A stretch of DNA of 45,110 bases from a virus (IMGVR_UViG_3300009151_000118:1-45110); one strand, 5' to 3'; shown: positions 3,210 through 16,133, numbered from the stretch's first letter. Translations and numbers: made by a program. The notes: generated by a model from the letters alone, not told the origin.

Positions 3210-6200
3210 CTATTGCTGTGCTTTCCTTTTGGCCATCGCGGCTTGATCTGCCCGAAACTTCTCGACCTGTTCAGGTGTAGCAATCCGCATAAAATCTCGA
3301 ACTTGCTTTCCATTCATGCGGAACGACGGGTTTAGTGTCGTCCGAATAATGTAGGATTGCAAAGAAGGTGCGACTTTCAACTCGTTCATTTTTTGCCGCG
3401 CTCCAGCAACATCGCCTCGCTTTATCATTTTTCCAATTTCAGCTTTAGCCTCATCAAACCTAAACCGCTGCGATTCCTTGGCATTGTAAATGTCAGCCAT
3501 GCCGGGACCGCCGGGTGCGCCGGGACTAATTGTTATGCCAGCCAAAGGTAGCATCGCGGCAAGTGCTGCGCTTTTCTTGTCTCCGGTGCCGTGGAAATAG
3601 TCGTTGACCGCATCGTATTGGCTCATCGGCAACGTACCAATTATTACATCGTAACCAAGCCTGCCTATCACAGCCCCATAGCCATAAATCCCCTTGTCAT
3701 CTGGCCCGATAAGCTTGTGCCCAAACCCGCGATCATTAGCTGCAACCTCGTACATCAATTTACCCAAAAAGCTTAGTTTTCGCAGCATTATATCGCGTGG
3801 CTGCGTAACCCAGCCGATTTGATCCTCGTTCACTTTACCTGTTGGCAGCCGGCCATAGATCGCTGTGCCGTTTTCATCATAGCGAATGAGGAATCTTCCT
3901 TCTTTTCCTTTTTCATTGTCGCTTGGAGCTTGGTAAATTTGACCGGCCAGCCATGCAGCAAGATGGGCCGCAAGCACCAAACTCACTGTCGAAAATGCCG
4001 ATTCTATCAGGAGCATACTTGCCGCTTTAAGACGGGTACGCCCTTGCGCTTTGTCCAGCATCAGGGGGCCAGCATCACGCAAAATTTGTGCTTTCACATC
4101 CGACGGCAAACCGCCGATAACATCCTTTGCTGCGGCCATATTACCCAAAGTAAACGAACGCGAGAATAGCAGAAGGTTTGCTGTGGTCCGCGCCATTTGA
4201 GACATCGCCTCCATCGGCAATGCGCCCGCATAGCGGTTGGCAAAATGTGCCGCCTCTCGGCCAGCCGTTACCGGGTCGAGGCCAGCCTTAATTCCCTTCT
4301 CGCGCAAGTGAGCGTAAAGGCCTGCCTGCAAATCTGCAATACGATCCCACAAAAGCGTATTGTGCCAAACGTCGCCAAACTTGTCGATGGCGCGGCGCGT
4401 AGCCTCGCCAGCCGTGGGCGAAAACAAATCAACACCCTTGCCGAGAATTTGCGAGGTCCACGATTGACCGGCCTTTATCCCCTGCCCTTCCGCAGAAGCA
4501 ATACCGGCAATGTCCTGATTGAAATAGCGACCCCCAATAGGGTCCATGCCATCTTTAATCGCTTGGCTCATCTGCGCGGGGTCATTACGGACCTTGTTGC
4601 CGGCAAAATAGCGATAGAGCAACAGGACACCCAGTGGATCGGCTGGAATAGCTTTGCCCCAGATCACCGCGTTGTGCATCACCGGGTTATACATGATGAT
4701 GCTCATCTGCTTGGCTTTAATGTCCATGATGGCGCGAACAATTCCGCTGCTCGGCCCGGTCAGCACAGCCTTCAATGGCCCTTCAAACTCTTTGCTGATC
4801 CACAAAGGCATCATATCGCCATTCTGATCGAGCGCTGGAACAACCTTGCCCGTCTCCGCGTCCTCAACAAATTTCACACCCCATGTTTGCAGTGCTGGCT
4901 CATCGGGCATCGTAAAGAACGACTGCGGGTTGCTCGTGGAACCTTCTTCCACCAGCACATCGCCGGTGTCTTTGCTCATAGTTTTGATATTTTCAACAAG
5001 GGTACGCCCCGCAATGGCTTGGTCGAGGCGCTGCGTCGCAACACCAAGTGTCCTAATATCGCGCACAACCTCTACGCCATTCCCAAAGGCGGCGCGGGCT
5101 GCGGCCTCCGTCTCCTCTACCGTTTCATATTTGCGCTGGCGAAGCTGGCCGGTTGTGGTCGAAATTTTGCCACCGCGCCTTTCCTGTTTCGAAGTGGTTT
5201 TGGAAATCACCTTTGGCCCACTGGCAGTCATTTCAATAATCATGCGCGGGACATAGGATTCCAGACCTTCACCCGTTACCATGCCTAAATCTTGGGCAGC
5301 CTTAAAACTGGCATCAGCTCGGCGCTGGAGTTCAAGAACGGTATCACGCTCTTTATCCGTCAAACGGTTTAGCCCTTCATTCGGTCCCGGCTGATCGCCT
5401 CGGCGTAAAATTACGCCCTGCTCGTCCGCAGCTTCCCACATCCGGCGGCGGGATTCCGCATCAAAGTTTTTGACCAGCCATTCGTCAAGCTTACCCCACT
5501 GATATGCAGCTAAGCGCTTGGCATTGGCAAAATCTTTGGCCACACCTTGCGCCCGGTCGGAACCCTCCGCAATAGGGTCAAGCCCCATCCGCACTTCATG
5601 CAAAGCGGTTTGCACTGGATCAGGCAGCGCCTTGCGGGCTGCCTCGGCTAGCTTATGCCCCACATTATCCACGCCACGGCCAAGGATGTTGGTAATGATC
5701 CCGCCGGGACCGGTGCGAGGGGCTTCCTTGTCGTCGCGCTCCACGCGGCTCTGGCGGGCAAAACTGGCGTCCAAAGCCCCAGCCTCGGTCATGTCATTCA
5801 TACGCGAGGCAATCTCCCCGCTCGACATGGCGCGCATTACGTCCTTTGCGGTGCGGAAACCGTTGCCGCGCAGCGCATTGCCGATGGCCTCAAAGATAGC
5901 CTTGATCCGCTCCCACGCCTTTAGGAGTAGGCCGGCGGGCTGGCGCTCACCTGTTGCAAATCGAGCAAACAGATCGGACACCGCTTCCTCGACCTGATCT
6001 TCGCCAGACAATTCAAAATATCGCTTCTTGATGCTGGCCATCAACCGAGCATCTCCAGTCGCCACCCGCGACAGTGCGCGCCATTCCGCATCGGTGAAAG
6101 CACCCCGCATCGCATGGACAACTTCATGGTTCAAAGCGTGCATTGCGCTCGGCCCATCCATTGCAATGGTAATGACGTTGCGATGGAACTCGCCAGCCGG

Positions 6201-9200
6201 CCCGCCAAGGCTCTTTACGATCTTGAGCGCAACTTTGCCCTCCAAACCGACCTCGCGCAGCCGGTCGAGCATATCGGCATGAGAAGCAGAAAGTTGTTCG
6301 CTACCCGGTTCTGCAATGCTTTGCTTGGCATCACCTTCGGCCTGCGTCTCATCGCTTCGCTTCTCACCAGACAATTCGGTGATGACCTGTTGCAGCTGCT
6401 CGCGCTTGGCTGCCAATTCATCAGTTTTTGGCCAAGGCTTTGCGACTTCCGCTTGAAGCCCTTCCTGCTCTTGCGCTGCCGCCTCAACCTTTCGTTGCTC
6501 GTATGCTGCCGCCGACCGAAACCGGATTGGGTCCATTTGCTCACGAATTTTATTGATAAGCGCTCGTGCTGTGGACGGCGTAAAGGCATCTGTCAGCGTA
6601 TTGTATTGCGCCACCTCGCGCCCTTGAGCATCAAGAACCGAAATAGACGCACTGACTTTGCCGAAACTTTCACCCACATCAATCTCAGCGGGCATCCCAT
6701 CAATGCTAACGCCGCTGATCGTAAATTCTTTTTTGCCTTTCGACTCTACCGCCTTTGCCCCAATGGCTTTGGCCAGATCATTGGTGTCAATAAATTGCTG
6801 GTCGCCAAGCGAACCCTCAAAATCTGGCGTTCCCAGCTTGTTTCGGATTGCATTATCCACACCATCGACAGAAGTAATTTTCTCGCCATCAATGTCGATT
6901 GAAAACCGCGCTTTTGGATCATTGGCGCGAAACTTGGCTATAATAGCCTGCGCGGCATCAGTTGCGGCCCGAACATCGTTGTAGGGCTTGCCATCGACCA
7001 TAGCCATGCGCTGTGTGGAATTAGCTTGCACTCGCGCTTTTTGCGCCTCCAGCACATCCGCGAACTGGGCGTACATATCGGCGCGCTGCGGACCATTAGC
7101 CATTTGACGCACATTGCTGGCAATCTTGCTGCGCAGCGCGTTGATGCGATTATTGTAAGAGCGTTGTTGCAACTGCATTTTTTTAATGTCGCCATCCAAC
7201 TCGACGCGCTGAATCATTAGCGGATTGCCGGTCGCAAGTGCCGCCATTTCAGCCATGCCGACGCTTTCGGCATCATCAAATTCCATAGTGTCCGCACCGT
7301 CATATTTACGGATGCCATTGATTGCCTTTAACTTTTTGGCATTCAAGTCCCACATCTTTGCATCTATGCTGCGCTCTGTCACATAAGCGATCACATCGAC
7401 GGCAAATTTATCGTCGCCATATTTAGCCAGCAAAGAATTGCCTTGGCGAACAATACGTCCTTCGCGTTGCTCAATGTCAGATGGTTTCCAAGTCGTGTCG
7501 CCGTGGTGGAGCGCAACCAAGCGCTCTTGCACATTCGTACCAGCCCCCATGCGTTGCGTTGACCCAATAAGAACGCGCACTTCACCACGGTTTACTTTAC
7601 CAAACAGATCAGATTTTTGTTTATCGGTATTGGCCTCTTGCACATAAGCGACTTCGCTTTCGGGGATGCCCTGCGCCTTGAGTAGCTTTTTCAGTTCATC
7701 ATAAGCATTCCACCCGCCGGCCTGCGCAACCCGCATTGCTTCAATTTCGTTCGGGTTGAATTTTTCCAAACCATCAAGAGCTTTAGCTTTTGCGTCCTCG
7801 TCGCCCTTGCTGACCGCGTCCATGAGCTTGCCATAGGCCGCATCATAGGCCGCAATTATTTTGTCATCGCCTTTCGATTTAGGGACAGATCGGTCCAGAA
7901 AAATAATCTGGGTGCCTTTATCTGAGTTCCATTTCTTATATGTGGCTGCAACGCGGTCTGCAATTGTCGCCAGTTTGCTGCGCTCGTCCCCGACATCTAT
8001 GGTTGGATCAACAGCGCGAGGATCGAGCGAGACTTTGCGCGCACGGTCCATAAGCTTCAACCGAGCAATGTTTCGAGCTTTGGGGTCCTTTTCAAATGGC
8101 AGCTCTTCGAACCCACGCACGACCTCTTCCAGAATGCGTTGCGTGGTCGGAGAAGGTGGAACAACCGCAACTTCACGGTCACGGCCATTGGCGCGTTGCG
8201 AATTGGTATCAGGCAATGGATATTTTTTGCCGGGGTTATCTTCGGCATAAGCTGCTTTAATGTCGTCATTCGTAACGGCATCAGCCACCGAGTACCACAA
8301 ATCCATCAATGGGCGCATATTTGCCCAGTTGCGGCCAAGTCGATTGACCTCTTTGACGCCACCCGCCTCTGTTGGCTCCCACTCGGTTCCGGCGCTGACA
8401 AACATAGAGCGCCATGCGTCAAAATTCTCCAACCCCATTTCTTTCAATTCCTGCGGCACAAGGTTGCGCATAAGCAGGTACATTTCAGAAACAGAATTGC
8501 TAATTGGGGTGCCGGTCAGGAAAGCGATGGACGTATTGTGCCGTTCGCGGATTGCCCTCATTTTCAAGTGAAGGTCCATAGCCTTCTGCGAACCAGTCTT
8601 ATTGCCCATCCCGCGAATATCTTGCAGGCGTGAGGAATAGGCGAGGTTCTTAAATTCGTGCGCCTCGTCTATTGTGAGGTCGTCAATTCCCATTTGCTCA
8701 AACGATAGCAGGCGGTCGCGGTTGCCGCCACGTAAACGCGCCAACCGTTCCTCCAGCTTTTTAACCAGCCGTTCAGCCTCGGCCACACCGAAAGGTTTGC
8801 GAAAACCAGACTGGCCAGCTTCTGCCGCAGCTTTTTCTGCTTCTATGACAGCAGCATGTGCCGATTGCAGTTCATCTTGGATGTACCGTTCTTCGGTTGC
8901 CCGGTCGAGGTCAATAAAATTGAATGAGCTATGCCCAATAATCGCCATGTCAAAATCACTGGCTGCAATCCGGGCAAACAATCGCCGTCGGTTAGCGCGC
9001 TCAAAATCAGCTTTGCCCGCTGCCATAATCTTTGCGCCGGGGTAAAGCTTGATCGCGTCTTTTGCCCATTGCTCGACTAGATGATTTGGCACCACTACAA
9101 GCGGCTTATTCGACATGCCCATGCGCCGCCGCTCCATAATGCGCGCAATGGCTGTAAAGGTTTTGCCAGCTCCCACAACATGGTCATACAGCACGGCTGG

Positions 9201-12200
9201 ATCAGTAATCCCGCGCCAGATGCCGTTCATCTGGTGCCGGCGCATTTTGATTACGGCGTCAGGAACTTTGCCAAAAAGCTGCAGGTGTGAACCATCTCTC
9301 TGGCGCAGCAATCGGCTGTTGAATTTTTCATTGAATATATTGACCAACCGATCCCGGCGCTCGTCATTGTTGAATGCCCAATCCTGAAATTCGCTGGCCA
9401 GTTCCTCGCCTTTTTGCTCACTCTCGGCGGTGCCAACCTCATCGACATGCGTTTTCTTGTTTTCGTCTTTGAATGTTACCTTCAAACCCTTCGAGTTAAG
9501 AATTTTGTCAACAATGGCATCAGCATTGTGAGCATTGGCTGACGTTTCCCACTCAGCAGCAGGCTTGCCGTCGGTGTAAACGGTAAAAGCGTTGGTCAAT
9601 TCCGAATAGCTGACATGGGCGTTATGGTAGCCAAGGTGTTTTAGAAAATCAGCATAAACGTCTGGCGGAATCCAATTGCTGCCCAAAATCGGCGTAATTC
9701 GATCGGGCGTCAAATCTTCTGGAATAATGCTCTCAAGCGCTTTGGCATTGGCATCGAGGCCGGCGGCGCGGGCCATGTTGAGTTTGCGCTTGACCAAGCC
9801 AGACAGGTAAAGATCACGCGGCTCCCAGCGTTTTGTCTCTGGGTCATAAAATGCCCTCGGCGTCTCACCTTCGGACAAAGCACGCTCGGCCCCCGGAACA
9901 TCGGTCCCTAGCAGTTTGGCAATACGCTCAATGTCAATTCGACCAGACTCAGATAAGGCAATTGAAATCGCATCATTGGCATTTTCAGCATGTTCCGCAA
10001 ATTTTGGCGGCGTTGTCACGCGCCGGCTCATAATGTCCGACTTGACCCATTTTCCATCAACATATTTTTCAGTTGCCAAAGGCAGTCCACCATCTGGCAT
10101 TACATCGGCAAGGTTTGCTATTTTTCGGTCATTAAGCGCGCCATGTTTGGCTACAAAAGCATCATACTTAGCATTGAGCAAATTTCGACCAGCGGCAATT
10201 TGCGCATCAGTAGCACCGGATGATTCCAAAACAATTTGATTTTTGATGGCATCCCGCACCGGCAAAAGGTCACGCACAATCGCTACACGGTCTTTGCCCC
10301 AGCGATCTTTGGGCGGAATTTCGTTTTCATTTTGGTAAGTGACAAGTTCTTTTTGGTTTCGGTTAGTGACCTTTCCACCTTCCTTGACCACTTTAAGCGG
10401 TTTTCCATCCTCGCCCAAAGTGTTGGTTGCGCGCTGCCACTTGCCATCAATCGTGTAATTATAGTCGGCGGGGAATGGGGTGTTTTCGGTCAAGGGAATC
10501 TCGCGCATAAGCGCTTTGCCCATTTCACCTGCATCAAAATCGACCACCATGTTGAGCTTATTATCAAGGTCGATTGCAATTGCGCCGGGTTCAGCGCGCA
10601 TGGCTGAAAGGCGCATAGCGTCAGCCATGACCTGATAATGCCGCAAAGTTTTTTTGGCGATTCCATTAACGGGTGCAATTTCCGGCAATCTGGAAACCGC
10701 TTGGTCGAGCAAGCTTTCAAACTGCGAAGGGTCAGCCAGCGTCACATTCAGATCGGCGCGAGCGTTCATAGTGCCCGTCGCGTTAATGTCGCCCACAACC
10801 ATATAAGGGCGGCTTACAAAAAACGGGTTAGCATTGATTCGCTCACCAGAACCGGCGGGATCGTCAATGGTACTGGAAGGCACCCACTCGTTCATAGTTT
10901 GCAACGCTCGGTCAATTTCATAGGGCGCAGGCTGTCCATGACCCTTTGGGTATTCGCCGCCCTCCATAACTTTGATCGCAGCATCGGCTACGGCTTGTTC
11001 ATCTTCCGTCAGCTTTTTGAAAAATAGCATGTCGGTCACAACGGACGTTCGCGCATTTTCCTTGAATGCGGTGTCAGGCAGACGAATGCCACCGATAAAT
11101 CTACCGCGCCGCGCCATTTCTTTGCGGGCGCTTGGGTCGAGCGCATCCATGAGATTATGGCTTACCACCATTGCCATAGTCCCGCCCGGTGCCAGCGCAT
11201 CAAGCGACCCAAGGAAAAACTGATTGTGGATCGACTTGCCATTAAGCGCGCTGTTGTGCGGAAAATAAAGGCTTTCCCGGCCAAAGGGTGGGTTGCCAAT
11301 TGCAAGAGCAAATTGATTTTTGGGCAGCGGAAGCTGTTGGAAACCCGAATGAACAACATCGGCATTTGGGTAAAGCTTTTTGGCAATGCGGGCGGTCAGG
11401 CCATCATACTCGACTCCAAAGGTCCGGCTGCCACCGCGCAAATTTTCAGGCATCAAGCCAAGAAAATTGCCAGTTCCCATAGATGGCTCAAGGATCGCCC
11501 CTTCGCGGAAGCCAAGCTTTTGAGCAGCTTTCCACATGGCATCGACAACGGTTTTGCTGGTATAGTGCGCAGCGGTCGTAGAATTACGCGCAGCTTTCAA
11601 TTCGTCAGGCGTCAACAATTCCTCAATCTCAGAAACGCGCTTCTCCCAGCCTTTGGCAACACCTTCGCCCTCTTTGGCCCCAGCCACACGAAAAGCGTTT
11701 TTCAAGCCACCCCAGCCGACATAGCGCGCAAGCTGGCGCTGTTCCTCTGGGCTTGCCCGACGGTTTTCGGTTTCCAGCCGCTTGAGCGTCTTGATCGCGT
11801 CGAGATTGTCTTGAAATTTAACACCCTCGGTGCCTTCGCCCAGTTTCACATCATCGCTGATCGTAAAATCCGAAGCGGGCACATTGATTGGTGTCGAGTT
11901 CTCAATCACCTTGTTGGCAGCGATGACTTCTTCGCCGGGAGTTTCCGCGACAGGCTCACCTTTTACTCGCGGTTGATTCTTTCTTCCACCTCTGGCTCCG
12001 GTGGCAGGTTTATCAGTTGCGGAAGAACGAACTCCTCCGCGTCCTCCCTCGACAATCCCTGTCGCATCATTTGCGCTACTTGGTTCGCTGCTGTCCGGCT
12101 GGCCAATTGCGCCTGTCGGTTCAGTTCCCCCGTTTGCTTGAGGCTCTGGTACATTTTCGGACACCATTGTTTCCAATGGTCCAGTGCTTGGCGGGTATAT

Positions 12201-15200
12201 TGCATCCCCAGCATTGTCTGTCTCCTTAGGGACATTATGCGCTTGTTCGGCTTCTTGCGCAAAATCTTTTAACGCTGCCGCCATGACCTCCGGGCTATCC
12301 ATGTCGGCGGTTGGCAAACCACGATCAACCAACTCATGCCTTGCACCATCATACCAATGGCGAAGGAAGGGGCGCAGTTTTTCAAACGATTCCCCAAGAT
12401 CGCCAATCATCGCCCGCGCAAAATCTGCAAACTTACGAGCGCCAGCCTCAATATGGAAAGCCGCCAGCTCGGAACCCAGCAACAGCGTTTCAGGGTCGAT
12501 CCCCGCGTTAAGACGGTTCATGCGCTCCTTGAGCAACCGGCGCACCTCGGCAGCGCGATCAATGCTCACGCCCTTGTTTTGCGATCCCCATGTAGGTTTG
12601 CGCGCAGCGGCTTCCTCTGCCGTTAAAAATTGGTCGCTGCGTTTGGAAGTATCTACGCTGGCGACATAGCCTTGATCCCTTGTCGGGACTAAGCTAACCG
12701 TTTCTTCATGGCGAATGCCATTGCGGGAATAAGAGCGAACGCCATTAGCATCTTCAAAAACATCATGGCCCTCTAGGTTTTTGCCTATGGGTTTTGCTTT
12801 TGAGGTGGCCGCTGCTTCGGGTGTAGGTTTGGCGGCATCAGGCAATGGCTTGGCTAAGTTGGCTTGATCCCATCCACGATACCACGCCTCCCCAACAGCG
12901 GAACCCATATCATGCAAATAGCTGGGCAGCCGGCGTTCTTCACCACGCGCAAAAGCCTCAGCACCATCAGCCTTAGCTCGTTCTGGTCGATCAGCATTTT
13001 TTAAGAAAAGATAATTGCTGGCTCGAACGTCATCGGGAGAAATGCCTTCATGCGCAGCCATCTGTTCATCTGTGGCTTGACGCGGATTTATGCCTTCAAG
13101 GGCAATCCGGGCATAATCGAGCAATTCTTTTTTGACTGGGAAACCTTGGCCCAGATCATTGGCCAAATTCCATTTTGGCACTGGCCCCCGGCTGTTGTTC
13201 ACAAGGCGATCAAAACCATCGTTAATGCGCGCATCAATCCATTCACGTGCGCTCATCTCATTACCAGAACTGTCACGGACTCGCATATTTTCAGCAGTCG
13301 AAATTGCAAATTTGCGATTGCGTTCAGCAATTCCGCGTTCAATTTCTGCTTCATGGTCAGCCGCAGCTTTGGCCACTTCGTCTTTAGTAATCCCAGCCCA
13401 TTCACGCAAAACTTCACGTGTCGTAGCAAGGCCGCTAGGAAGCTTGATGCCAGTTGCCTCGGTAAAAATCAGCCGCGACTTTTTGTTGTCTGGACGCAGC
13501 ATATCACGCAGCGCCCAAAAATCTTTATTGCGAATGTAATCCACAAATTTATGATCGGAAGGCAAAACATCCCGGCCAAGCAATTCGGCGCGGCGGCGCG
13601 CAAGTGCATCATAATCAATGGCTGGTTGCGCAGCCTCGGCGGCACCGGCAGCCACAGGCGCAGCTTTTTCTTTTGCTGCCAAGTCCATCATACGCTCGAC
13701 ATCGGCGTCGTCATGCAACTGGCCGGTGGCGTTTATGTCCTTGAGCGCGGCAAGTTCGGCTTGCTCATGGGGCGCAAGAGCGGGCTGTTCGGTATGCGCA
13801 ACAACATCAGCCGCCCCCGCTGGGGGAGGTGTGGCCGGCTTGTTCAGTACATCACGGATTAAATCTTCATGCTTGGCCGAATACAGAAGCGCGCCGTCTT
13901 TGCCCGGTGATACCTTGGCATTGTCAGGTAGCGCGTCCTTGATCGCGGCAATCTGCTCTGGCGTTGCGCCAGTTAGGGTTACGCCTTTTCCGCTTGCTGT
14001 GCGCTCCAGCTTCGCCGCATTCAGTTCAGGTGATGCAGCCGCAGCAGCCTCTCGCGCTCCCGCACCACGACCTTCTGGATTCGCAACGCGTTCTCCAGCC
14101 GCATCTTGTGCGCCGGATCGAACGTCCCTTTCGTCAGATACCTTTCCAGCGCTGCTACCCTCGCTTTGCTTTCCTCCAGAGAGTACCTCAAGGTGGCCAT
14201 TGAGGGCGACGATGTCGTTGGGGGAGAGGAGTTGTTCAGCTTGGGCCTCATGTTCGTTGGTTGCAGCATGGCTTGGCGCTCCAGTATCGGCCTCTTGTTC
14301 GATCACATCGGCCAGTAGGGTGTCATGTGGCGCATCTGGGGCATGATCTACCCCAGCCTCCGCAGCGCGCACCTGCAGCGCCTCAGAGGCCACGGGGCGG
14401 TTGTCGTCGCGGTATTTCTCGATTGCATCCGTTGGCGGCATCTCAAACGGGGTTTTGGCCGGCTTACTCGGTTTTTTTGCCTGTTTCATGTTGGCAAAAT
14501 CAGGCTCACCGGCATTAGTTTCATTCAATGGATCTGGTTTGGCTGCACGTTTTCTGATTGCATCAGCCGCCATACTTGTAGCTTTTTTACCAAGGGCAAT
14601 GCCACCATGCAAAAGTTCGCCGCCGGCAGCCATAATTAGCGCCTGCTTACCAACATCATGAAAAAGTGGTCGATTAGGGTCATATTGCTGGGCGACCGCA
14701 TTATCACCTAAAGTCATAGCGCCACCGATAGCGGCGTTTCCACCTATGCGAGAGGCCGCATTCACGCCAACTCTAGCCAACCCTTTTTCAGCAATTTGCA
14801 TACCAGCCTTGCCAAGGCTTTTACCAATGATCCCGCCAACAATCTTTTCGCCCGGAATCAACATAGCCGCGCCGGAAACAACCGCACCTTCCGACGCTAT
14901 AATTTGAGCTTTTTCTATTTCTTTGGCACTTGGTTGCCTTTTGGGTGCTGCTTCTGCCACTTTGGTTGCGAATGCTAGAGCCGCCTCATCTGACATGCCT
15001 TGGTTTTTACCTTTGTGAAAAGTATCCCAATATGCCTGTTCGTTGGGGGCTTGCATTTGCGCCTGAATGGCAGCTTCATAATGAGCATCATAGCTATCAC
15101 CCGCTGCGACTTTTGCACCTATTATTGGATTTATGAGCAAAGGCACGGAGCCAATTGCGCCGTGCATAATTTCTTGCCCAAGGGTAGGGTTTTTTAATGC

Positions 15201-16133
15201 CGTCTCTTTTGCTTTGTTTTTCAAATTCTCCGCAAGAAGGGTGTAGCCTTCTGATAGGGCTGGTGTACCAGTTAGCGAATCTATAACCGTACCGACAACT
15301 TGAGACGCACCAGCGCCAGCTTGGTAAAGGGCCGACCCCAATTCAGTCCCATAATCGCCCAAAGTTCCCCACCAGCCCTTTGGCTTGGCCGGAGCGGCAG
15401 CGGCGGGCGCGAATTGCGCCCAAGGATCAGATGATGATTTGGGGGCATCTTTGGCGGGCGCGAATTGCGACCAGTCATCATCGACTTTCCCACCATGCGC
15501 AGCAGCCCAAGCATTTGCGGCTGCCATGCGCTTGCCTCGGGCTAGACCTTTCGAGCGCTCAAAATGCTGGTCAATTGCGACGGCAGCGGCGGCAGGTGTT
15601 GGCGCGTTCAAAATTGCAGCGCGTTTTGCCGCCGGCAAACGGTCGATCTCATATTTTGTAAACAACGCGACCTGCATCGGTGTGGCTTGCGACACATCAA
15701 TACCCATCATTTTTTGAAATTCAGCGGCGCGATCTGGGTGCCACTGGAACACACCACGCGCAGCACCGCCATCGCCTTTTGCATGTGGATCAAAACCGCT
15801 TTCCGCAAAGCCGTTACCCATCAGGCCAGCAATGACGTTACCCGAAAACCCGACATCCTGAAAAGCATTGGCATATTTGGGCGCAGCGGCGCTGTAGTCT
15901 ATCTTGCCTGCAAACGACGGGGCAAAGCCTTGTGCGCCACCCGAAGGCTGTTCTCCACGCCCCCAATCGCCTGTCGCGGCTTGGTAAAACGGGTTGTCTT
16001 TAGGATCGCCTTGCCCTTTGAGCGGGGTTCCAGTGCCAACGCCAGTCGGGATCGGCGGCGGGGTCCATTCCGTTGCGTCATCAATAGGAATATCCCCGCT
16101 ATCAGCGGATACGAATTGATCCCAATCGCTCAT
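3210..16133 (-). CDS. Giant polyvalent ejection protein: lysozyme, DarB-like methylase-helicase, protease
   Basis: 4307 residues in one uninterrupted frame. Residues 87-215 resemble the phage tail lysozyme domain, with a catalytic-type Glu at 111 (GNGFAESGFDP). About 1440-1720 is an N6-adenine methylase: YVGWGGL, then EPSMGTGNF near 1548 (SAM site) and NPPF near 1614 (catalytic). About 2290-2960 is an SNF2-type helicase: GAGKT near 2320, DEAH near 2489, FLTGTPIS near 2541, QREGRIVRQG near 2888. A zinc-protease motif HEVVH is near 3335. The rest resembles associated domains of polyvalent proteins, with a hydrophobic helix near 4040. Phage P1 DarB joins the same methylase and helicase, is packaged, and protects incoming DNA from type I restriction. 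The position after the ejection genes suggests this protein is injected too. Linkers are low complexity and carry two nested frames. TAATG overlaps the previous stop. Confidence 0.9.
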   Translation of the reverse strand: MSDWDQFVSADSGDIPIDDATEWTPPPIPTGVGTGTPLKGQGDPKDNPFYQAATGDWGRGEQPSGGAQGFAPSFAGKIDYSAAAPKYANAFQDVGFSGNVIAGLMGNGFAESGFDPHAKGDGGAARGVFQWHPDRAAEFQKMMGIDVSQATPMQVALFTKYEIDRLPAAKRAAILNAPTPAAAAVAIDQHFERSKGLARGKRMAAANAWAAAHGGKVDDDWSQFAPAKDAPKSSSDPWAQFAPAAAAPAKPKGWWGTLGDYGTELGSALYQAGAGASQVVGTVIDSLTGTPALSEGYTLLAENLKNKAKETALKNPTLGQEIMHGAIGSVPLLINPIIGAKVAAGDSYDAHYEAAIQAQMQAPNEQAYWDTFHKGKNQGMSDEAALAFATKVAEAAPKRQPSAKEIEKAQIIASEGAVVSGAAMLIPGEKIVGGIIGKSLGKAGMQIAEKGLARVGVNAASRIGGNAAIGGAMTLGDNAVAQQYDPNRPLFHDVGKQALIMAAGGELLHGGIALGKKATSMAADAIRKRAAKPDPLNETNAGEPDFANMKQAKKPSKPAKTPFEMPPTDAIEKYRDDNRPVASEALQVRAAEAGVDHAPDAPHDTLLADVIEQEADTGAPSHAATNEHEAQAEQLLSPNDIVALNGHLEVLSGGKQSEGSSAGKVSDERDVRSGAQDAAGERVANPEGRGAGAREAAAAASPELNAAKLERTASGKGVTLTGATPEQIAAIKDALPDNAKVSPGKDGALLYSAKHEDLIRDVLNKPATPPPAGAADVVAHTEQPALAPHEQAELAALKDINATGQLHDDADVERMMDLAAKEKAAPVAAGAAEAAQPAIDYDALARRRAELLGRDVLPSDHKFVDYIRNKDFWALRDMLRPDNKKSRLIFTEATGIKLPSGLATTREVLREWAGITKDEVAKAAADHEAEIERGIAERNRKFAISTAENMRVRDSSGNEMSAREWIDARINDGFDRLVNNSRGPVPKWNLANDLGQGFPVKKELLDYARIALEGINPRQATDEQMAAHEGISPDDVRASNYLFLKNADRPERAKADGAEAFARGEERRLPSYLHDMGSAVGEAWYRGWDQANLAKPLPDAAKPTPEAAATSKAKPIGKNLEGHDVFEDANGVRSYSRNGIRHEETVSLVPTRDQGYVASVDTSKRSDQFLTAEEAAARKPTWGSQNKGVSIDRAAEVRRLLKERMNRLNAGIDPETLLLGSELAAFHIEAGARKFADFARAMIGDLGESFEKLRPFLRHWYDGARHELVDRGLPTADMDSPEVMAAALKDFAQEAEQAHNVPKETDNAGDAIYPPSTGPLETMVSENVPEPQANGGTEPTGAIGQPDSSEPSSANDATGIVEGGRGGVRSSATDKPATGARGGRKNQPRVKGEPVAETPGEEVIAANKVIENSTPINVPASDFTISDDVKLGEGTEGVKFQDNLDAIKTLKRLETENRRASPEEQRQLARYVGWGGLKNAFRVAGAKEGEGVAKGWEKRVSEIEELLTPDELKAARNSTTAAHYTSKTVVDAMWKAAQKLGFREGAILEPSMGTGNFLGLMPENLRGGSRTFGVEYDGLTARIAKKLYPNADVVHSGFQQLPLPKNQFALAIGNPPFGRESLYFPHNSALNGKSIHNQFFLGSLDALAPGGTMAMVVSHNLMDALDPSARKEMARRGRFIGGIRLPDTAFKENARTSVVTDMLFFKKLTEDEQAVADAAIKVMEGGEYPKGHGQPAPYEIDRALQTMNEWVPSSTIDDPAGSGERINANPFFVSRPYMVVGDINATGTMNARADLNVTLADPSQFESLLDQAVSRLPEIAPVNGIAKKTLRHYQVMADAMRLSAMRAEPGAIAIDLDNKLNMVVDFDAGEMGKALMREIPLTENTPFPADYNYTIDGKWQRATNTLGEDGKPLKVVKEGGKVTNRNQKELVTYQNENEIPPKDRWGKDRVAIVRDLLPVRDAIKNQIVLESSGATDAQIAAGRNLLNAKYDAFVAKHGALNDRKIANLADVMPDGGLPLATEKYVDGKWVKSDIMSRRVTTPPKFAEHAENANDAISIALSESGRIDIERIAKLLGTDVPGAERALSEGETPRAFYDPETKRWEPRDLYLSGLVKRKLNMARAAGLDANAKALESIIPEDLTPDRITPILGSNWIPPDVYADFLKHLGYHNAHVSYSELTNAFTVYTDGKPAAEWETSANAHNADAIVDKILNSKGLKVTFKDENKKTHVDEVGTAESEQKGEELASEFQDWAFNNDERRDRLVNIFNEKFNSRLLRQRDGSHLQLFGKVPDAVIKMRRHQMNGIWRGITDPAVLYDHVVGAGKTFTAIARIMERRRMGMSNKPLVVVPNHLVEQWAKDAIKLYPGAKIMAAGKADFERANRRRLFARIAASDFDMAIIGHSSFNFIDLDRATEERYIQDELQSAHAAVIEAEKAAAEAGQSGFRKPFGVAEAERLVKKLEERLARLRGGNRDRLLSFEQMGIDDLTIDEAHEFKNLAYSSRLQDIRGMGNKTGSQKAMDLHLKMRAIRERHNTSIAFLTGTPISNSVSEMYLLMRNLVPQELKEMGLENFDAWRSMFVSAGTEWEPTEAGGVKEVNRLGRNWANMRPLMDLWYSVADAVTNDDIKAAYAEDNPGKKYPLPDTNSQRANGRDREVAVVPPSPTTQRILEEVVRGFEELPFEKDPKARNIARLKLMDRARKVSLDPRAVDPTIDVGDERSKLATIADRVAATYKKWNSDKGTQIIFLDRSVPKSKGDDKIIAAYDAAYGKLMDAVSKGDEDAKAKALDGLEKFNPNEIEAMRVAQAGGWNAYDELKKLLKAQGIPESEVAYVQEANTDKQKSDLFGKVNRGEVRVLIGSTQRMGAGTNVQERLVALHHGDTTWKPSDIEQREGRIVRQGNSLLAKYGDDKFAVDVIAYVTERSIDAKMWDLNAKKLKAINGIRKYDGADTMEFDDAESVGMAEMAALATGNPLMIQRVELDGDIKKMQLQQRSYNNRINALRSKIASNVRQMANGPQRADMYAQFADVLEAQKARVQANSTQRMAMVDGKPYNDVRAATDAAQAIIAKFRANDPKARFSIDIDGEKITSVDGVDNAIRNKLGTPDFEGSLGDQQFIDTNDLAKAIGAKAVESKGKKEFTISGVSIDGMPAEIDVGESFGKVSASISVLDAQGREVAQYNTLTDAFTPSTARALINKIREQMDPIRFRSAAAYEQRKVEAAAQEQEGLQAEVAKPWPKTDELAAKREQLQQVITELSGEKRSDETQAEGDAKQSIAEPGSEQLSASHADMLDRLREVGLEGKVALKIVKSLGGPAGEFHRNVITIAMDGPSAMHALNHEVVHAMRGAFTDAEWRALSRVATGDARLMASIKKRYFELSGEDQVEEAVSDLFARFATGERQPAGLLLKAWERIKAIFEAIGNALRGNGFRTAKDVMRAMSSGEIASRMNDMTEAGALDASFARQSRVERDDKEAPRTGPGGIITNILGRGVDNVGHKLAEAARKALPDPVQTALHEVRMGLDPIAEGSDRAQGVAKDFANAKRLAAYQWGKLDEWLVKNFDAESRRRMWEAADEQGVILRRGDQPGPNEGLNRLTDKERDTVLELQRRADASFKAAQDLGMVTGEGLESYVPRMIIEMTASGPKVISKTTSKQERRGGKISTTTGQLRQRKYETVEETEAAARAAFGNGVEVVRDIRTLGVATQRLDQAIAGRTLVENIKTMSKDTGDVLVEEGSTSNPQSFFTMPDEPALQTWGVKFVEDAETGKVVPALDQNGDMMPLWISKEFEGPLKAVLTGPSSGIVRAIMDIKAKQMSIIMYNPVMHNAVIWGKAIPADPLGVLLLYRYFAGNKVRNDPAQMSQAIKDGMDPIGGRYFNQDIAGIASAEGQGIKAGQSWTSQILGKGVDLFSPTAGEATRRAIDKFGDVWHNTLLWDRIADLQAGLYAHLREKGIKAGLDPVTAGREAAHFANRYAGALPMEAMSQMARTTANLLLFSRSFTLGNMAAAKDVIGGLPSDVKAQILRDAGPLMLDKAQGRTRLKAASMLLIESAFSTVSLVLAAHLAAWLAGQIYQAPSDNEKGKEGRFLIRYDENGTAIYGRLPTGKVNEDQIGWVTQPRDIMLRKLSFLGKLMYEVAANDRGFGHKLIGPDDKGIYGYGAVIGRLGYDVIIGTLPMSQYDAVNDYFHGTGDKKSAALAAMLPLAGITISPGAPGGPGMADIYNAKESQRFRFDEAKAEIGKMIKRGDVAGARQKMNELKVAPSLQSYIIRTTLNPSFRMNGKQVRDFMRIATPEQVEKFRADQAAMAKRKAQQ
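11963..12214 (-). CDS. Nested small gene inside the giant gene, +1 frame
   Basis: An 83-residue frame lies wholly inside the giant gene, one base downstream of its frame, over giant residues about 1307-1390. It begins at ATG 12214 with TAAGGAG exactly seven bases upstream, a stronger ribosome site than most genes here have. The product (MLGMQYTRQALDHWKQWCPK, later ANQVAQMMRQGLSREDAEEF, ending LINLPPEPEVEERINRE) has the balanced composition of a folded helical protein. The giant frame over the same bases is Gly/Ser/Thr/Pro-rich filler. From memory, small phage proteins with a similar 'ALxHWxxxxPKM... GxxxxxAxE... LPPE' pattern exist as separate genes; this needs a search. It stops just before the methylase module. 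Function unknown. Confidence 0.7.
   Translation of the reverse strand: MLGMQYTRQALDHWKQWCPKMYQSLKQTGELNRQAQLASRTAANQVAQMMRQGLSREDAEEFVLPQLINLPPEPEVEERINRE
14021..14200 (-). CDS. Second nested helical ORF inside the giant gene, +1 frame
   Basis: A 59-residue frame from ATG 14200, in the same +1 frame as the nested gene at 11963-12214, covering giant residues about 645-704. The product reads MATLRYSLEESKARVAALER, then YLTKGTFDPAHKMRLENALR and IQKVVVRERERLL. It is strongly helical and charged, like a real coiled-coil protein. The giant frame here is low complexity (Gly, Ser, Ala, Glu, Arg). There is no clear Shine-Dalgarno site before 14200; the frame extends upstream to ATG 14269, but that part looks non-coding. 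The evidence is composition and the parallel with the other nested gene, so it is weaker. It might be expressed by coupling, by frameshift, or not at all. Confidence 0.4.
   Translation of the reverse strand: MATLRYSLEESKARVAALERYLTKGTFDPAHKMRLENALRIQKVVVRERERLLRLHHLN

Follow-up and report, generated by a model that had tools for sequence, protein, structure and literature searches.

The giant DarB-like proteins rank with the largest gene products of phages, and their presumed role is to be injected and shield the DNA. In the methylase-helicase section of their main paper, Iyer et al. (2017) described a dyad with the order LPD36-MTase-SNF2, and P1 DarB as a virion-packaged protein that shields injected DNA against type I restriction (PMC5512222). 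The giant protein of Burkholderia phage JC1 was detected as a virion protein (PMC9144972). P1 Ulx and DdrB are listed as aids to DarB localization or capsid addition, with Ulx entered as 'Aids DarB localization' (PMC9024508). Neither that methylase-helicase section nor word searches of the main paper revealed mention of a nested gene (PMC5512222). We also found no report of one in the literature on overlapping genes and DarB-like proteins, but an earlier report is not excluded, since most subscription journals were outside the search.

We analyzed a stretch of 45,110 nucleotides from a virus (IMGVR_UViG_3300009151_000118), referred to here as the window. It encodes a single giant chain that combines a lysozyme, an N6-MTase and a SNF2 helicase, and thereby satisfies the criterion for a DarB-like polyvalent protein. 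Within the giant gene, in another frame of the same strand, lies a 252-bp reading frame. The relevant features are the following:

3210..16133, minus strand: giant DarB-like polyvalent ORF of 4307 amino acids, overlapping the nested gene (ORF; Pfam lysozyme and SNF2/helicase domains)
15501..15881, minus strand: Phage_lysozyme2 domain near the N terminus of the giant protein (Pfam, E 7e-19)
12222..12228, minus strand: Shine-Dalgarno sequence TAAGGAG, 7 nt 5' of the nested ATG (sequence and start-site comparison)
11963..12214, minus strand: nested gene for an 83-residue, five-helix protein, MLGMQYTRQALDHWKQWCPKMYQSLKQ...INLPPEPEVEERINRE (ORF, homologs, AlphaFold)
11873..12239, minus strand: disordered linker of the giant protein, wholly containing the nested gene (segment residues 68-189, pLDDT below 50)
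11154..11843, minus strand: N-terminal helical region (LPD36 position) and N6-adenine methylase module, directly 3' of the nested gene (alignment, NPPF motif)
8646..9176, minus strand: SNF2-related helicase domain of the giant protein (Pfam, E 2e-9)

Five independent tests, namely homologs, survey, start and Shine-Dalgarno sequence, substitutions and fold, identify the 252-bp frame as a genuine nested gene; there are no expression data. It belongs to the coding block of the DarB-like methylase-helicase proteins, just 5' of the methylase module.

The nested frame starts with the ATG at 12214 and ends with a stop codon at 11963-11965. Its ATG begins at the second base of a giant codon, (16133-12214) mod 3 being 1, which places it in the +1 frame relative to the giant gene. 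Both the ORF and the frame calculation agree with the original prediction, which had been made from the sequence alone and proposed an 83-residue +1-frame product with its ribosome site seven bases upstream. Its placement of the end of the gene just before the methylase module was likewise borne out, the next domain in the giant frame being that module, from about 11870. AlphaFold predicts five helices for the nested protein with a mean pLDDT of 92.2. For the giant chain the pLDDT is below 50 (about 30) at segment residues 68-189, the overlap covering about residues 76-159. This is in agreement with the description of a well-folded-looking small protein inside a linker.

The ribosome site was compared with a background of 6,152 other ATG and GTG codons located in the same frame within giant ORFs, of which just 0.2% had a Shine-Dalgarno match of at least 7 nt. 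A match of at least 4 nt was found at 51 of 53 nested starts compared to 23% of the background, and one of at least 5 nt at 39 of 53 (74%) compared to 5.4% (p 4e-38 if the loci were independent). The starts were picked near the conserved start of the domain, and in two loci the Shine-Dalgarno sequence itself guided the choice. Because of this, and because the loci are related, the p-values are only illustrative.

The length of the nested ORF is no evidence for a gene, because at 6215-6589 the giant gene also has an out-of-frame ORF of 124 aa; length as proof was therefore dropped. The long out-of-frame ORFs noted within the giant gene, all on the minus strand, are at window positions 6215-6589, 14021-14269 and 15281-15514. 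Such ORFs of similar length, and a frame combination that is naturally stop-poor, are what a chance ORF would rest on, that is, a second frame open merely through the codon bias of a GC-rich gene. Homology across divergent phages, the conserved start and Shine-Dalgarno sequence and substitutions at the wobble position of the small frame contradict this explanation, and we give it practically no credence. The length alone could be due to chance, and it is the ribosome site that is unusual; what decides the matter is conservation.

In tblastn searches the window protein gave weak matches only, all inside the DarB-like genes of the phages Ochrobactrum POI1126, Sinorhizobium PBC5 and Vibrio VvAW1. 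When the POI1126 and VvAW1 proteins served as queries, 21 phage records were matched, among them Agrobacterium Atu_ph08, Pseudomonas Itty13, Klebsiella SopranoGao and LASTA, Erwinia Pavtok, PEp14 and Stean, and Microcystis Mwe-JY07. The offset to the giant frame was the same in all phage records inspected and in all IMG/VR contigs found. On the strand in question, the giant CDS was the sole annotation at the nested site in each inspected record, apart from Itty13, which had none there. The window protein alone had no match in the genomes of close relatives, and in a broad sample of 399 Pseudomonadota genomes the sole match was the centre genome itself. Plasmids searched with the POI1126 protein gave no match, and sequence searches of PDB and NCBIfam gave no meaningful relative. 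The small proteins also match phrog_938 (length 2185), because PBC5 gp22 ends in the small frame; the 'endolysin' label is an annotation carry-over that says nothing on lysis, and was rejected.

In PBC5 the giant gene is split around L003:7700-8276 (L003/L018/L144; L numbers denote loci). The upstream half, an N-terminal part of 2185 aa, is in frame with the small domain, and the methylase half is offset in the usual way. Whether this represents an indel or a real frameshift cannot be told apart. Together with several loci in which the small frame stays open for 30-79 codons upstream, the PBC5 arrangement would fit programmed ribosomal frameshifting, by which the domain would be appended to the C terminus of a truncated giant protein without internal initiation. 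However, in 12 of 47 nested loci a stop is located within 10 codons before the start (just 2 codons in five of them), and internal initiation is therefore favored. The Shine-Dalgarno sequence and the start are also kept even in PBC5, and we consider frameshifting improbable.

We compared substitutions in the overlap between 11 pairs of relatives. The numbers at giant codon positions 1/2/3 were 231/96/86 in the overlap and 279/214/1028 in the downstream flank (chi-square 314, p 5e-69). Thus, 56% of the changes in the overlap fell at the wobble position of the small frame and 21% at that of the giant frame, whereas downstream 68% fell at that of the giant frame. Amino-acid identity within the overlap was higher for the small frame than for the giant frame in all 18 pairs compared. 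No giant-frame stop was seen in 48 overlaps, where about 62 (~1.3 per overlap) were expected from re-drawing synonymous codons by the genes' own usage; the third frame had a mean of 5.8 stops. The giant frame in the overlap is kept open and is not free of constraint. Taken together, the comparisons establish that amino-acid selection acts on the small frame, the giant frame being just kept stop-free as a disordered linker.

A strong, well-spaced Shine-Dalgarno sequence midway through a long ORF could also mean that the overlap is mainly regulatory, with an internal ribosome site tuning translation of the giant mRNA and the protein being secondary. The amino-acid constraint on the small frame and the conserved helical fold argue that the protein itself is selected, and this explanation appears even less probable to us than frameshifting. 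The original prediction would have been refuted by a lack of homologs, by the absence of a conserved start or ribosome site in relatives, or by normal synonymous divergence of the giant frame. The opposite was found on all three points: homologs exist and keep the frame relation, ribosome sites recur at their starts, and changes concentrate at the small frame's wobble position.

So that the small gene itself did not determine the choice of loci, we surveyed the best 80 of 422 viral contigs ranked by likeness of the methylase to that of the window. In 77 of the 80 loci, the methylase was immediately preceded by a nested member of the family in the same frame; 70 distinct small sequences were represented. 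Since the 80 loci are those nearest to the window, the nested fraction may drop farther out. In the remaining three (L138, L152 and L154), that slot and frame were occupied by a small ORF of another kind, with a shared 'IANRWM.GW' motif. This second nested family (IANRWM.GWP..VK...) was located at L138:3702-3986, L152:3693-3968, L154:3642-3935 and L160:3651-3920, and is also carried by Pseudomonas phage 8P. It is possible that it is a very distant relative of the first family, but the sequence comparison is suggestive only (hhalign probability 7.6%, E 0.005).

Further possible occupants of the slot, recognized by position only, are found in Burkholderia JC1 and relatives, in Pseudoalteromonas Y7 and in plasmids of Campylobacter, Salmonella and Pseudomonas. 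In the plasmid methylase-helicase genes, small ORFs matching in slot and frame were seen at L155:3477-3953 (Campylobacter), L156:3660-3962 (Pseudomonas MPC6) and L157:3678-3983 (Salmonella). The one on the MPC6 plasmid is annotated, and the start of the methylase CDS was there placed 3' of it despite an open frame upstream. In lessieviruses (Bcep22-like; L159 and L167-L169, about 3633-3968), an AAGGAG-type site precedes a nested ORF by about 10 nt. The ORF is 94-99% conserved across three phages; the codon-position test had too few changes and did not clearly favor the nested frame, and these ORFs were therefore counted as positional only.

If unrelated or very divergent small proteins do fill the same slot and frame, this would imply a required, previously unseen antirestriction component. 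A tentative generalization would be that a concealed nested subunit, encoded in cis, is a general feature of the DarB-like methylase-helicases in phages and conjugative plasmids; we think this somewhat more likely to fail than to hold. A nested copy was looked for and not seen in P1 DarB or in examples from Rhodococcus, Roseibium, Acinetobacter and Streptococcus, several plasmid methylase-helicases included, so the module can work without one.

A scan of bacterial genomes gave 22 loci, 17 of which were nested in the same way. The other five (L042, L048, L049, L055 and L058) had no giant frame reaching a methylase, and part of the bacterial copies sit away from any DarB-like gene. The original prediction mentioned similar small proteins as separate phage genes. 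This was not confirmed: the phage copies were all nested and unannotated, and non-nested ones were found in bacterial genomes. Copies in L055, L058 and L059 are near type I restriction-modification genes (HsdM-like, by eye), L055 also having a McrC-like gene; these neighbors may be just defence islands.

The only recurrent profile match was Pfam TnpV (PF14198), with 9 of 24 members at E<0.01 and a best E of 6e-6. The window protein scored 19.1 bits, under the Pfam cut-off of 27 bits, whereas the nested Fibrobacter relative L059 was above it with 38.8 and 35.5 bits. Judged from these profile scores, the nested protein appears to be distantly related to TnpV. Fibrobacterota ORFs starting with a QLNLFGD motif (L059:5916-9344 and L172:1441-1756) were found to contain, close to their start, a nested gene of the TnpV type, followed in L059 by an ADP-ribosyltransferase-like stretch (by eye).

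The nested gene could accordingly encode an independent effector riding in the same transcript, for example one against restriction, or a factor like TnpV that acts in recombination or regulation. The distant TnpV relation, the bacterial copies without a giant gene and the location of L055 and L058 beside type I restriction-modification or McrC-like genes would fit this, TnpV itself being merely postulated to act in excision (PMC3158075). An unrelated passenger would not need to be kept directly 5' of the methylase as tightly as the survey found. We regard an independent effector as rather unlikely, but as the most serious of the alternatives.

A fold search of PDB gave no significant match to the nested protein. 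The best Foldseek match by TM-score was 2apl, a DUF1896 protein (TM 0.62 over 66 columns, E 4.7, not significant). DUF1896 (PF08989) genes lie directly 5' of a homologous methylase in five of five Bacteroidota loci (L069, L070, L071, L072 and L073), which suggests that this unassigned family is functionally linked to the DarB-type methylase. The nested gene shares this position directly upstream of the methylase. The window protein had no Pfam match to DUF1896, and hhalign gave a probability of 0.1%; homology is thus unsupported by sequence, and the parallel is an analogy of position only.

The explanation that we prefer combines the nested gene with a fusion history and an accessory role. As a whole we hold it to be right by a modest margin over its being wrong, and its functional part rests on position only. 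A small helical gene would once have been located upstream of a methylase-helicase gene, like the DUF1896 genes now in Bacteroidota. Upstream modules such as the lysozyme would then have fused to the methylase, with the other frame of the small gene being read through to become the linker; the small protein would be old and the linker new. This history is inferred, because the linker is disordered and poorly conserved, because non-nested relatives exist and because of the DUF1896 arrangement. The earlier suggestion that the gene was trapped when neighboring ORFs fused is therefore plausible, but has not been demonstrated.

The nested protein may be a dedicated accessory, translated in cis from the same mRNA beside the nascent giant chain. 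It could act on the methylase-helicase part by aiding its folding, holding it inactive or loading it into the head before injection. That the protein is a partner of the DarB-like enzyme, as originally proposed, remains inference, strengthened by the position directly 5' of the methylase and by the DUF1896 parallel. If the partner is required, reconstitution of DarB-like enzymes without it would miss a component. A conserved second gene inside giant DarB-like genes was in any case absent from every phage annotation checked.

Compared to known systems, the host gene of the nested ORF resembles P1 DarB and the methylase-helicase dyad in having an NPPF methylase and a SNF2 helicase along with the lysozyme domain, whereas P1 DarB begins at the methylase and has no nested copy. 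Ulx provides a precedent for a separate DarB accessory; Ulx and DdrB are likewise proteins separate from DarB, but have their own non-overlapping genes. DUF1896 genes are also small and directly 5' of a homologous methylase, but stand alone rather than nested, have no detectable sequence relation to the window protein and give a weak structural match. TnpV is similarly a small mobile-element protein, but the one full gene inspected (L170) was on its own next to a relaxase-like gene, and the 3.3 kb seen contained no methylase. With known overprinted phage genes the locus shares a same-strand gene within another gene. It differs in that almost every close relative of a widespread giant gene has the arrangement, and in that, of the two frames, the nested one seems to be older and constrained. 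It therefore offers a clear case in which a small nested frame looks ancestral and the disordered linker of its host looks like the by-product of the overlap, the reverse of usual overprinting.
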